Assembly: GCF_000010305.1 (NCBI RefSeq) | Contig: NC_012489.1 | Span: 1,922,001-1,986,000 of the forward strand | From: Gemmatimonas aurantiaca T-27 | Lineage (GTDB): Bacteria > Gemmatimonadota > Gemmatimonadetes > Gemmatimonadales > Gemmatimonadaceae | Reading direction: 5' to 3' | DNA: 64,000 nt | In this document: piece after piece, positions 7,377 to 30,694 of the stretch | How the letters are laid out: each line of letters starts with the position of its first letter | How positions within the stretch are numbered: position 1 is the stretch's first letter | Position numbers and translations under genes: made by a program | Notes under the pieces: model-generated | The model's input: only the letters and a program-made list of their open reading frames with translations | What the model was told of the DNA's origin: nothing | Databases searched by the model: none

Positions 7377-7479
7377 CTTCGCTGCACACCATTTTCTGCT
7401 ATCTTGTCTGACTACCCACGAACGCTTGAATATTCGGCTTCGTGGTCGTTCGAGTCCCTCTTACCGTTGGCATTCACGC

Positions 7480-8142
7480 ATGGCCCAGGCGCCCCGTACC
7501 TCGACTACTCCGACTCACAGCGGCGACGACCCGATGGAGTCGGTCGCCAACTGGTTCCAGACGAACGCCAAGCCGATTGCGTACGTGGTCGGTGCCGCTG
7601 CTGTGGTGACGGCCGCGATTTTTGTCTATCGGAACATGGCGGAGTCCAAGCGTGAGAAGGCTTCGGCGGCGCTGTATGAGGCGCAGGCCCCCTTCGCACA
7701 GGGCAAGTTCGACGAGGCCCAGAAGGCACTGGAGAAGGTGACCAACCAGTATGCCAGCACGTCGTCGGGCCAGCAGGCGGCCGTGCTTCTGGCTCAGGTG
7801 CTGTACGAACAGAAGAAGTACGACGAGGGCATCAAGGCGCTCGAGAAGGCATTGGGGAGCTCGGGCACCGAGTTCAAGGCCAGCCTGGAATCGCTGATTG
7901 CGGGCGGTTACGAGATGAAGGGCGATTTGGCCAAGGCGGCCGAACACTACGCCAAGGCTGCGTCGGCCTCACCGTTCATGGCTGAAAAGCACGCGTACGA
8001 AGCCTCCCAGGCGCGGAGCCTGATGGCGGCCGGCAAGCTGGACGAAGCCCGGACTTTGTGGGAAGCGTTGGCGCAGTTGGATGGCGAGCCGGTTCAGCAG
8101 GAAGCGAACATTCGCCTCGGCGAGCTGGCGGTGAAGAAGTAA
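7480..8142 (+). CDS. membrane-anchored tetratricopeptide-repeat protein (YfgM-like)
   Basis: This 220-residue protein has a short cytoplasmic N-terminus, one membrane helix near residues 34-52 (IAYVVGAAAVVTAAIFVY) and an outward helical region of TPR-type repeats, e.g. FAQGKFDEAQKALEKV and YEQKKYDEGIKALEKA. This layout matches the YfgM/TPR_21 family, whose E. coli member associates with the SecYEG translocon and periplasmic chaperones. That role is an inference here. I chose ATG 7480; an internal ATG at 7534 is possible and would keep the membrane helix. The gene is followed by a strong terminator. Confidence 0.8.
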   Translation: MAQAPRTSTTPTHSGDDPMESVANWFQTNAKPIAYVVGAAAVVTAAIFVYRNMAESKREKASAALYEAQAPFAQGKFDEAQKALEKVTNQYASTSSGQQAAVLLAQVLYEQKKYDEGIKALEKALGSSGTEFKASLESLIAGGYEMKGDLAKAAEHYAKAASASPFMAEKHAYEASQARSLMAAGKLDEARTLWEALAQLDGEPVQQEANIRLGELAVKK

Positions 8143-8168: not shown

Positions 8169-8205
8169 AAAGGGTGGTCCGGGGATTTCCGGATCACCCT
8201 TTTTT
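8169..8205 (+). terminator. intrinsic terminator after the TPR gene
   Basis: A 13-bp stem (AAGGGTGGTCCGG with CCGGATCACCCTT, one G-T pair) encloses a 6-nt loop and runs into six T residues. It lies 27 bp after the stop codon and ends the rightward gene block. Confidence 0.93.
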
Positions 8206-8520
8206 GTGCACATCAGCCAGTTCGCAGGGAGTGTCTCTTGAGCGCCAGTATACAGCCACTATAGGACAACTAGCGATCTGGATAAATGCGTATAATACAT
8301 GTTATGTAAACTTTGTGTGGTGGATAACTGTGGGAAACATTGGCGTGGAAATCCACCCTGGTTGTGGATGACTTGTGTAAGTCGTTGCCGTAAATGCGTT
8401 TGAGGCGTGTGTGTTCATACGGTACGCATTCGTTCACTCACGAAAGACCATTCTGTCCACCTGTCCACATTTTTCTGGGTGATATTTCGAGTGCTGTGAT
8501 AGTCTCAATTGCGCTGGCAC
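8206..8520. other. gene-free, AT-richer terminus segment between convergent gene blocks
   Basis: The segment between two facing terminators has no credible coding frame. It contains the dif-like site, two one-mismatch DnaA-box-like sequences (8319-8327 and 8363-8371), an inverted pair GGTGGAT / ATCCACC (8319-8325 / 8351-8357), and repeats of the XerC-arm sequence (8391-8399 direct; 8424-8430 inverted). All genes to the left run rightward, and nearly all to the right run leftward, towards it. Confidence 0.75.
8285..8312 (+). other. dif-like XerCD recombination site
   Basis: The 28-bp sequence reads as an 11-bp XerC arm AATGCGTATAA (8285-8295), a 6-bp centre TACATG (8296-8301) and an 11-bp XerD arm TTATGTAAACT (8302-8312). 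The XerD arm equals the well-known Bacillus dif arm and differs from the E. coli arm TTATGTTAAAT at two bases. The left arm matches GTGCGCATAA-type XerC arms closely. Size and spacing are exactly those of dif. Its place at the meeting point of two oppositely oriented gene blocks supports a chromosome-dimer-resolution site at the terminus. An XerD-type recombinase is encoded at 29 kb. Confidence 0.88.
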
Positions 8521-8556
8521 AAAAAAGACGTGACCACGGTACTCCGCGATCACGTC
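8521..8556 (-). terminator. intrinsic terminator of the kdsB-dapF operon
   Basis: Read on the minus strand, GACGTGATCGCGG pairs with CCGTGGTCACGTC around a 4-nt loop and is followed by TTTTTT. It lies about 100 bp downstream of the dapF stop. Confidence 0.92.
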
Positions 8557-8653
8557 CATCCAGCATCAATGGGCCTCCGAGGCCCTCCAAACCGCTCATC
8601 TGAACGGCACCCGCTGGACCCTCTCGGGCCCCCGGATCATGGCCTGGGGGCCC

Positions 8654-9541
8654 CTACAATCCCGCGATTTCGCCCCGAAAGACCACCCGACCCTCGCCGC
8701 GCAATGTGGGTCGAAAGCCCTCGAGTGAGCGTCCATCCGGAGCCGTCAGGGGCTCGAGGTCGACCTCCACATCCCGTCCGGAACTCGTGCGGATGGTGGT
8801 GGTGGCACCATCCGAAAGGCCCCAACTGCGCAGCAACACGGCGGTTGCCACCGCCCCCGTGCCGCAGGCCAAGGTCTCGCCTTCGACCCCACGTTCGAAG
8901 GTGCGGTAGCGCCAGGACCCGTCGGGGCGCGGCGATACCCAGTTCACATTGGCGCCGGCCGGTCCGGTAGCCTCGTGCCGACGAAGCGCCGGGCCTGCCC
9001 CCGCGACATCCACTGCATCGGCATCCTCACAGAGGATCACCAGGTGTGGAATGCCGGCCACCGCAAAGCCCACTCGGCGGCCCTGTGCGGTGGCTGGAGC
9101 GATGGGCATATCCGGCCGAATGTCCGTGATCGGCTGCAGCGCAATGGCTGGCAAGCCGTCGATGCGGCTATTGATGAGTCCGGCACCAGTGGCCAACCGC
9201 ATGCCACTCGCCGATGTGATGCCCCATTGGGCGCTGATGGCAGTGGAACAGAGCGTCGCGTTACCGCACAGATCGGCGGCCGTTCCGTCGCTGTTGTAGT
9301 AGTGCACCCGCACATCCGCTTCTTCCTGCAACGGCTCCAAAACAACCAACCCGTCTGCGCCTATTCCGTTGTATCTATTGCAGATAGCCTTGATCGCTTC
9401 AGGTTGTGTCACAAGGTCGATCGGCGTGGTGCGTCCGTCAAAAAACACGAAGTCGTTGCCCGACCCGGTCATCTTCACAAACGACAATCCCCGCAGGCGA
9501 TCGATCAGCCCGGGCGCCGAAACATCCGGTTGCGCGCTCAC
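8654..9541 (-). CDS. dapF: diaminopimelate epimerase
   Basis: This enzyme interconverts LL- and meso-diaminopimelate for lysine and peptidoglycan synthesis. The start MTGSGNDFVFFD and the two catalytic-cysteine regions are present: LCGNATLC (first Cys directly before GN) and ACGTGAVATA (second Cys). The usual CGNGARC motif is altered after the catalytic CGN. I place the start at GTG 9541, which forms a GTGA overlap with the upstream glycosyltransferase stop and gives 295 residues; an in-frame ATG at 9577 would add 12. It is the last gene of a long leftward operon, 98 bp before the terminator. Confidence 0.93.
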   Translation of the reverse strand: MSAQPDVSAPGLIDRLRGLSFVKMTGSGNDFVFFDGRTTPIDLVTQPEAIKAICNRYNGIGADGLVVLEPLQEEADVRVHYYNSDGTAADLCGNATLCSTAISAQWGITSASGMRLATGAGLINSRIDGLPAIALQPITDIRPDMPIAPATAQGRRVGFAVAGIPHLVILCEDADAVDVAGAGPALRRHEATGPAGANVNWVSPRPDGSWRYRTFERGVEGETLACGTGAVATAVLLRSWGLSDGATTTIRTSSGRDVEVDLEPLTAPDGRSLEGFRPTLRGEGRVVFRGEIAGL

Positions 9542-10299
9542 AGCCGCCCCGTGATCGCCCACCACCGAAGCCGCCATACCATCCAGATGGCTTCCCGCAC
9601 GATGCCCTTGGACATTTTCGACTCGCCTTCTGTCCGGTCATGGAACACGATCGGGATCTCGGCGATCCGGAATCCCTTCTTCCAGGCGCGGAAACTCATC
9701 TCGATCTGAAACGCATATCCGTTCGACTTCACCTGGTCGAGCGGAATGCCCTGCAGCACTTCGCGGCGGAAACACTTGAAGCCACCGGTGCCGTCGCCCA
9801 GCCGCAATCCGGTGACCGCCCGCGCATAGATGTTGGCGCCGTACGACAGCATCAGGCGCGCCATGGGCCAATTCACCACGGTCACCTTACCGTCGCGATA
9901 CCGCGATCCGAGCACCAGATCGGCGTCCCGCACGGCCGCCAGGAACTCCGGCAGGTGCGCCGGGTCGTGGGAAAAGTCGGCGTCCATCTCAAAGATGTAG
10001 GCGTAGTCGCGTGCCAGGGCCCACGCAAAACCTGCCAGATATGCACGACCCAACCCTTCCTTCCCCGGCCGGTGCAGCACATGCACACGCGGATTTTCGG
10101 CAGCGAGCTCATCAGCTAGCTGTCCGGTCCCATCCGGAGAGTTGTCATCGACGACCAGCACCTCCAACCGCGGATCCTGATCGAGAATGCGCGGCACGAT
10201 ACGGGTGATGTTCTCGCTTTCATTGTAGGTCGGCACAATGACCACCCCGCGCTCTTCACCCCGAAGGGCACCGCGGGCCGGCGTTTTCATACGCGTCAT
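9538..10299 (-). CDS. GT2 polyprenol-phosphate mannose synthase-like glycosyltransferase
   Basis: This 253-residue family-2 glycosyltransferase resembles dolichol-phosphate mannose synthase (DPM1/Ppm1), which transfers a sugar from a nucleotide donor to a polyprenyl phosphate at the inner membrane. The motifs are IVPTYNESENI, VVDDNSPDGTG, the metal-binding EMDADFSHDP and the GSRYRDG/DGTGGFKCFRR segments. It has no C-terminal membrane helices, as in the soluble DPM type. ATG 10299 overlaps the upstream YfhO stop by 4 bp, so the longer open frame to 10341 is unlikely. The sugar is not determinable from sequence alone; mannose or glucose are the family norm. Confidence 0.88.
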   Translation of the reverse strand: MTRMKTPARGALRGEERGVVIVPTYNESENITRIVPRILDQDPRLEVLVVDDNSPDGTGQLADELAAENPRVHVLHRPGKEGLGRAYLAGFAWALARDYAYIFEMDADFSHDPAHLPEFLAAVRDADLVLGSRYRDGKVTVVNWPMARLMLSYGANIYARAVTGLRLGDGTGGFKCFRREVLQGIPLDQVKSNGYAFQIEMSFRAWKKGFRIAEIPIVFHDRTEGESKMSKGIVREAIWMVWRLRWWAITGRL

Positions 10300-29139: not shown

Positions 29140-29171
29140 TCAGGCGCGCGGGTGAAACTGGCGATGCACAC
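29140..29171 (-). repeat. direct repeat copy 2: 3' end of the intact xer gene
   Basis: The 32 bp are identical to 28504-28535. The two copies are 636 bp apart in the same orientation and bracket the lipoprotein gene. Confidence 0.9.
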
Positions 29172-30078
29172 TGCGCAGATACTCACGGTCCACGTGAGTG
29201 TAGATCTGCGTGGTGGCGATATCGGCATGCCCGAGCATCTCCTGCACCGCACGGAGGTCCGCGCCCCCTTCGAGCAGGTGCGTGGCAAAGGAGTGACGGA
29301 GCGTGTGTGGCGACACGGGCTTTTCGATCCCCGCCATCCCCACGTACTTACGGACGAGCTTCCAGGCACCCATGCGCGACAACGGTGCCCCGCGGCCATT
29401 GAGAAACAGAATGCCTTTGCCACCGCCTCGCTCGAGTACGGGCCGCAATTCGCGCAGGTACACCGCGACAGCGCCAATCGCGCTCCGACCAATGGGCACC
29501 AGACGTTCCTTGTTACCCTTGCCCAGGACCCGCACCAGACTGTCCTCGAGCATCACGTCCTTCACCGACATGCCGATCCACTCCGACACCCGCAGACCGG
29601 CGCCGTAGGCCAGCTCCAGCATGGCGCGATCACGAAACGCGAGACGCTCGTCGAGTCCGGGGGCTGCGAGCAGGCGGGTGACTTCGTCCACCGACAATAC
29701 CTCGGGCAACGTACGCCACCGCTGCGGGCTATCGAGCCGCTCGGTGGGATCGGTGGTCACCAGTCCTTCTGCCACCATGATGCGGAACCAGGTGCGCAGC
29801 GCCGAGATGTTGCGACGGATGGAGCTGCCGGCGAGGCCCAGATCCTTGAGGTGGTACACGAACTCACGCAGTGCCGCCGGCGTGATGTCCTTGGCCTGGG
29901 TGATGCCCATGGCGCGCATTTGCGCGGCGCAGCGGATCACGTCGCGGCGATAGGCTTCGATCGTGCGTGGCGATGCGCCCTCTTCGATCTGCAACGCGTC
30001 TTCGAAGGCCTGCAGATGAAAGCCGCGACGCAGCGCGCGCTCTGCTTCCGATGGCGCGTCGGGCGCGGACTCACGCAT
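29140..30078 (-). CDS. xerD: tyrosine recombinase XerD-type
   Basis: This 312-residue site-specific recombinase is expected to resolve chromosome dimers at dif together with a second Xer protein. The N-terminal SAM-like core-binding domain spans residues ~20-105. In the catalytic domain the full active-site set is visible: Arg163 (GLRVSE), Lys187 (LGKGNKER), His258 and Arg261 (HTLRHSFATH), His284 (LGHADI) and Tyr293 (TQIYTHV). The ending HPRA is typical of XerD/XerC. I chose ATG 30078 (8-bp overlap with the DedA gene); an upstream ATG at 30102 is possible. The matching dif-like site is at 8.3 kb. XerC versus XerD is not certain; the ADLRAVQEMLGH segment favours XerD. Confidence 0.9.
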   Translation of the reverse strand: MRESAPDAPSEAERALRRGFHLQAFEDALQIEEGASPRTIEAYRRDVIRCAAQMRAMGITQAKDITPAALREFVYHLKDLGLAGSSIRRNISALRTWFRIMVAEGLVTTDPTERLDSPQRWRTLPEVLSVDEVTRLLAAPGLDERLAFRDRAMLELAYGAGLRVSEWIGMSVKDVMLEDSLVRVLGKGNKERLVPIGRSAIGAVAVYLRELRPVLERGGGKGILFLNGRGAPLSRMGAWKLVRKYVGMAGIEKPVSPHTLRHSFATHLLEGGADLRAVQEMLGHADIATTQIYTHVDREYLRSVHRQFHPRA

Positions 30079-30694
30079 CGGGCGCTTCGCTCCGACGACC
30101 ACGCGTACGCCACCACCACACCAACGCCACCACCAGTGCGATGCCCACGGCGATCGCGCCGATCATGCGCTGCTGACCCGCAATGCGGATGAGCACCGCT
30201 TCGGCGTTGGCTCCCGCGCGAAACGCCAACAGACAGACCAGTCCGTACCAGGCGCCCGAAGCCAAGGACATGGCGATGCCGGCGCGCACCGCGCCAATAC
30301 CCAACGCACCCGCCACCGGCGGAACCACGGCCCGAACGGCTGGCAGAAAACGACTCACCACCACGGCAAACATGCCCTGGGTGGCAAATCGATTGGCAAA
30401 CCGCTCGCTCATATCGGGCGGCAACAGTGCGGGAAAACGGCGCGAAAGCCACGGCAGTCCGTACCGGTGACCAATCCAGTACATGAACATCGCCCCGCCG
30501 ATATTGCCCACCATCGTCGCGCTCCACACACCCAGCGCCGTGCCATTGCCACGGGCAGCCACGAAGGCACCGAGCGCAATCACCGTGTCGGCCGGCAGTG
30601 GTGGAAACACGTTTTCGGCAAATGCCGCGAGCATGATCGCGCCATACATTAGCGGATCCGGCAGCGACGTCAGCCAGTCGAGCAATTCAAGCAT
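30071..30694 (-). CDS. DedA-family membrane protein
   Basis: This 207-residue inner-membrane protein has about five hydrophobic segments and the DedA/SNARE-associated (VTT-like) motif: an E/N-FPPLPAD entry near residue 28 and the FxxRFLPAVRAVVPPVAGALG segment near residue 113. DedA proteins act in lipid flipping (undecaprenyl phosphate or phosphatidylethanolamine recycling) and membrane homeostasis. It starts 60 bp after the ispF stop and overlaps the xer start. It ends in an Arg-rich cytoplasmic tail. Confidence 0.9.
   Translation of the reverse strand: MLELLDWLTSLPDPLMYGAIMLAAFAENVFPPLPADTVIALGAFVAARGNGTALGVWSATMVGNIGGAMFMYWIGHRYGLPWLSRRFPALLPPDMSERFANRFATQGMFAVVVSRFLPAVRAVVPPVAGALGIGAVRAGIAMSLASGAWYGLVCLLAFRAGANAEAVLIRIAGQQRMIGAIAVGIALVVALVWWWRTRGRRSEAPDA

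Follow-up and report, generated by a model that had tools for sequence, protein, structure and literature searches.

The predicted dif site of the Gemmatimonas aurantiaca chromosome is accompanied by a conserved, DnaA-box-like element beside its XerD arm

On the chromosome of Gemmatimonas aurantiaca T-27, two opposed blocks of genes converge on a 28-bp sequence that resembles dif, raising the questions of whether this sequence is the working dif site of the chromosome and what else at the locus belongs with it. We analyzed a window of 64,000 nucleotides (NC_012489.1, 1,922,001 to 1,986,000; positions below are those of the window unless given as genome coordinates). By inspection, the sequence at 8285 to 8312 (AATGCGTATAATACATGTTATGTAAACT; genome coordinate 1,930,285) has the 11-6-11 layout claimed for it in a preliminary description. 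On the plus strand, it comprises a XerC-binding arm (AATGCGTATAA, 8285 to 8295), of which CGYATAA is kept in relatives; a central region (TACATG, 8296 to 8301) found in nearly all listed dif sites of the genus; and a XerD-binding arm (TTATGTAAACT, 8302 to 8312), also kept in relatives. Both 11-bp arms match the Xer consensus. The XerD arm is identical to that of Bacillus subtilis dif, whereas the XerC arm is of the CGYATAA type. Within the window, a search for the exact 28-mer allowing up to 3 mismatches gave 1 occurrence (0 expected from shuffles). When a degenerate dif pattern was searched for at a tolerance of 3 mismatches, this site was the sole match in the whole 4,636,964-bp single-contig chromosome, leaving no other copy of the 28-mer elsewhere in the genome at that threshold, and a reversed-pattern control gave 0 matches in the 4.64 Mb. 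Both the layout and the single-copy status were therefore borne out, and we regard 8285 to 8312 as almost certainly the chromosomal dif site.

Around the site, two genes converge across ∼510 bp of intergenic DNA, a gene for a TPR-repeat protein on the left (7426 to 8142, plus strand) and dapF, encoding diaminopimelate epimerase, on the right (8654 to 9577, minus strand), both pointing toward dif. Terminator-like hairpins flank it on either side: one 3′ of the TPR gene (8169 to 8208, plus strand; inverted repeat I1 at 8169 to 8202, then TTTTTT) and one after dapF (8526 to 8557, minus strand; inverted repeat I3; 1 found versus a shuffle mean of 0.8). Using a heuristic gene call based on GC3-weighted, nonoverlapping open reading frames, we counted 30 rightward and 0 leftward genes in the 40 kb left of dif, 2 rightward and 29 leftward genes in the first 40 kb to its right, and 4 and 29, respectively, in the next 40 kb, in agreement with the opposed blocks described previously. 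Gene orientation also flips at dif in the related genomes G028 (4,716,552 bp) and G029 (5,179,092 bp).

GC skew places the terminus at the same position. A one-change-point fit to 818 windows of 2 kb, a 1.636-Mb sample covering 35% of the genome, put the best change point at 1,930,000, compared to 1,930,285 for dif (mean skew of +0.032 before and −0.019 after). The sign change in skew that had been proposed as a check was thus found at dif in this sample. With dnaA at genome positions 1217 to 1420, dif lies 41.6% of the way round the chromosome, and the replichores are unequal (1.93 and 2.71 Mb). The proposal that dif marks the replication terminus is therefore supported by skew, gene orientation, and the polarity of a short word considered below, but its corollary that both forks end precisely there is not required: forks need not meet exactly at dif, as argued by Kono et al. 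2011 (PMC3025954). The accompanying premise, that genes run codirectionally with replication, held within ∼0.4 to 0.5 Mb of dif (∼70 to 98% co-oriented) but not elsewhere in the 35% sample (∼45%), and strong co-orientation is therefore a local property and not a genome-wide strand bias. One inverted 40-kb block in the right arm (genome 2,130,000 to 2,170,000) is an exception to the high co-orientation near dif, being 12% co-oriented with reversed GC skew (+0.054), and is likely a recent inversion or insertion. A separate observation concerns rRNA operons, whose usual place is near the origin. The only 16S rRNA gene found (L303; genome 1,882,858 to 1,884,381) lies 47 kb left of dif and points toward it; in both G028 and G029, the distance from rRNA to dif is similar (∼49 kb).

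Comparison across the phylum bears on whether the 28-mer could instead be a dif-like attachment site left by a Xer-using mobile element. Dif-like matches were present in 79 of 100 relatives and, with a stricter pattern, in 256 of 298 genomes of the phylum. In 78 of the 84 loci from the genus and the families f1, f2, and f3, dapF adjoins dif; in families f4 and f6, dif sits in a different gene neighborhood with dapF not nearby. A mobile origin is in keeping with phage-like contigs that carry dif-like sites together with DnaA boxes and with the two dif copies found in a few metagenome-assembled genomes (MAGs). However, the 28-mer is single copy, its TPR-dif-dapF neighborhood is kept across the genus, and both skew and word polarity flip at it, making a mobile-element remnant very improbable. 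A mobile-element source for the dif of this genus was also rejected, as its core was found in no viral contig. The MAGs in question (G011, G061, G212, G216, and G307) carry two near-identical dif copies, several of them at contig ends; these are possibly Xer-integrated elements or assembly duplicates. The dif call itself concerns an ordinary kind of site and is not new: Kono et al. 2011 (PMC3025954) had already included Gemmatimonadetes in their dif predictions.

The earlier suggestion that dif would serve as an anchor for the analysis of FtsK motifs worked as proposed. Without presupposing any motif, we ranked every octamer by its leading-to-lagging skew, and the most strand-skewed one in this unbiased scan was GGGCAGGG (89:13 leading to lagging; 56:1 within 600 kb of dif), a member of the Escherichia coli KOPS set GGGNAGGG. 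Its polarity flips at dif (17 plus and 1 minus to the left, 0 plus and 24 minus to the right), and the same flip was seen at dif in G028 (17/0 and 1/17) and G029 (9/0 and 0/13). The nearest GGGNAGGG words flanking the flip in the three genomes lie at −3.9 and +4.9 kb, −6.3 and +2.3 kb, and −1.6 and +5.1 kb relative to dif. The proteins expected to act here are encoded as well. The xerD gene is 20 kb from dif (29140 to 30102, minus strand; TIGR02225, 351.6 bits versus a cutoff of 329.6), and in two related genomes, too, no more than ∼20 kb separates it from dif. XerC is encoded at 2.94 Mb; XerC and XerD each pass NCBIfam equivalog cutoffs, and FtsK has alpha, motor, and gamma domains (PF17854, PF01580, and PF09397). 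Elsewhere in the genome, we noted an integron integrase (L035; 4,147,622 to 4,148,170; TIGR02249, 409 bits). By the standard scheme for XerCD/dif systems, FtsK would load on the polar KOPS words GGGCAGGG and move sister chromosomes from both arms toward dif, where it would meet XerC and XerD bound to the two 11-bp arms. Its gamma domain would then activate XerD, and recombination between two dif copies would convert a chromosome dimer to monomers before division. We favor this mechanism because the site is single and sits at the flip of skew and KOPS, because the genes for XerC, XerD, and an FtsK with a gamma domain are present, and because dif is conserved phylum-wide. In all of these respects (a single 28-bp site at the terminus with an 11-6-11 layout, a pair of Xer proteins, an FtsK with a gamma domain, and KOPS of the GGGNAGGG type that converge on dif), the system resembles E. 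coli XerCD/dif with FtsK-KOPS, and its KOPS word is E. coli-like rather than the SRS GAGAAGGG of B. subtilis.

What the earlier reading of the locus overlooked is a conserved box beside the XerD arm. A first box, GGTGGATAA (8319 to 8327, plus strand; reverse complement TTATCCACC, DnaA-box-like), is found at offset +6 in 22 of 22 distinct loci of the genus, with bases 8320 to 8327 invariant in all of them. A second, TGTGGGAAA (8329 to 8337, plus strand), corresponds to an order-wide consensus, TGTGGRNAA, starting at +15/+16 after dif. The genus pair GTGGATAA-N-(T)GTGGGAAA is invariant in 22 of 22 distinct loci, and bases further out vary; the pair GTGGATAACTGTGGGAAA occurs once in the genome, besides one match with 3 mismatches. 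A weaker third box, TGTGGATGA (8363 to 8371, plus strand; direct repeat D2), is present at offset +50 in 8 of 22 genus loci. Over the genus, f1, and f2 together, TGTGGRNAA, at a tolerance of one mismatch, starts 15 or 16 bp past the XerD arm in 69 of 69 distinct loci. It stands beside dif in 8 of 10 loci of f4 and f6, and f3 has a looser version. In Gemmatimonadales and two further families, the box is often a 10-bp tandem pair. In families f5 and f7 to f10, the box was found on the XerD side of dif in 0 of 18 loci, and it is therefore not essential to dif function in the phylum; in six f5 loci, a mirrored version, TTTTCCACA, is found on the side of the XerC arm.

The box is retained in f4 and f6 even though dapF is not close by there, and it therefore travels with dif and not with the neighboring gene. 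The same observation, together with a terminator located elsewhere, led us to reject an assignment of the box to the 3′ end of dapF or to the terminator of that gene, and a search for RNA families gave no match except a tRNA. We consider the box probably a functional, dif-linked element. Among its possible roles, a local KOPS at which FtsK loads or docks would fit its G-rich composition and its position next to the XerD arm, the side on which FtsK gamma acts. However, it is GGGCAGGG and not the box that is the skewed word of this genome, GTGGRNAA is only slightly skewed between the strands (232 leading versus 193 lagging), and the G-rich strand of the box points away from dif. The absence of strand skew rules out the box as a KOPS, and an FtsK loading or docking role in general appears highly unlikely. 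Another reading is that of a polar, Ter-like fork-arrest site for a terminator protein, with a genus-specific inverted pair some 150 bp off completing a small trap. This pair, CTGTCCACCTGTCCACAT (reverse complement ATGTGGACAGGTGGACAG; 8453 to 8470, minus strand; repeat D4), is visible in the flanks, with 18 minus-strand box matches at +147 to +150 over the 22 genus loci. While the location of the box at the skew flip and the presence of an inverted partner would suit such a trap, the box pair is confined to one locus instead of forming an array, the partner is found mainly in the genus, and a fixed spacing to dif would be needless for arresting forks. We therefore judge fork arrest improbable.

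The likeliest reading of the box, from its sequence and placement, is a putative site for an accessory protein that would act on, and together with, the Xer complex. Our leading candidate for this protein is DnaA, because the box matches the DnaA-box consensus, although we hold this identification at somewhat below even confidence. The order-wide TGTGGRNAA fits the consensus TTNTCCACA, and nowhere in the 1.636-Mb sample are DnaA-box-like sequences clustered more densely than in the dif flank. On the other hand, each genus box carries one or two departures from the TTATCCACA consensus, and in the few genomes compared, NCCACA is conserved in the oriC boxes, whereas the leading TT retained in the dif box is not; the identity of DnaA as the binding protein is therefore uncertain. 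Resemblance to DnaA boxes, and the density of the cluster at dif, would also fit a locus that titrates or reactivates DnaA, an equivalent of datA or DARS at the terminus that is near dif yet unrelated to Xer recombination. Like DnaA boxes at datA and DARS, the box is TTNTCCACA-like and tandem, but it is located at the terminus, and its copies in the genus are off consensus. Its spacing to the XerD arm is fixed within 1 bp in f1 and f2 and mostly so in f4 and f6, which would be needless for titration, and it stays with dif when the gene neighborhood changes. These features make a titration locus unlikely, and we retain an accessory site for the Xer complex as the preferred explanation.

Similar arrangements occur in several phage-like contigs of other lineages, in which dif-like 28-mers lie beside tandem TGTGGATAAC arrays (L305, 7600 to 7790; L311 to L323; and L348 to L362); therefore, the pairing of dif with DnaA boxes looks recurrent. 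Like the DnaA-box-like element of Gemmatimonas, the DnaA boxes lie past the XerD arm of the dif-like 28-mer; they are tandem in the relatives of L311 and at the second of the two dif copies carried by L305. However, these TGTGGATAAC arrays may represent origins of replication in which a dif sequence is present by chance. The viral-contig matches fall into few phage families, and a control with 58- to 70-bp spacing also matched dif-like sites near DnaA arrays; we therefore rejected them as independent evidence and treat them as supportive only. A more speculative proposal is that Gemmatimonadales dif is a composite, in which a XerCD core is joined by a box at fixed distance for DnaA or another sequence-specific protein. 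Binding there would help to switch on Xer recombination or set its timing and so connect the initiator with dimer resolution, the layout having arisen separately in some phages that carry dif-like sites. We regard this as possible but tentative.

Among known systems, E. coli dif differs in lacking the conserved box found here 15 to 16 bp past the XerD arm: TGTGGRNAA does not occur within 60 bp past the XerD arm in its dif region (L310). The nearest parallel in architecture is with the plasmid Xer sites cer and psi, at which PepA acts with ArgR or ArcA, since these also combine a core Xer site with an adjoining protein-binding sequence (putative in our case). The accessory sequence of cer for PepA/ArgR is ∼180 bp (PMC5357621), whereas the element described here is ∼20 bp, is DnaA-box-like, and is located on a chromosome with KOPS. 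No paper on DnaA boxes beside dif was found, nor was a conserved box adjacent to dif described in the literature searched; coverage was mostly of journals outside subscription, making this weak evidence of novelty.

Taken together, these comparative data fix the terminus and the FtsK word for Gemmatimonadota. Chromosomal dif is commonly described as requiring only the Xer proteins and FtsK; the locus analyzed here indicates that a chromosomal dif can carry a conserved, accessory-like element beside its XerD arm. Should the box bind DnaA, the resolution of chromosome dimers would be coupled to the initiator of replication.
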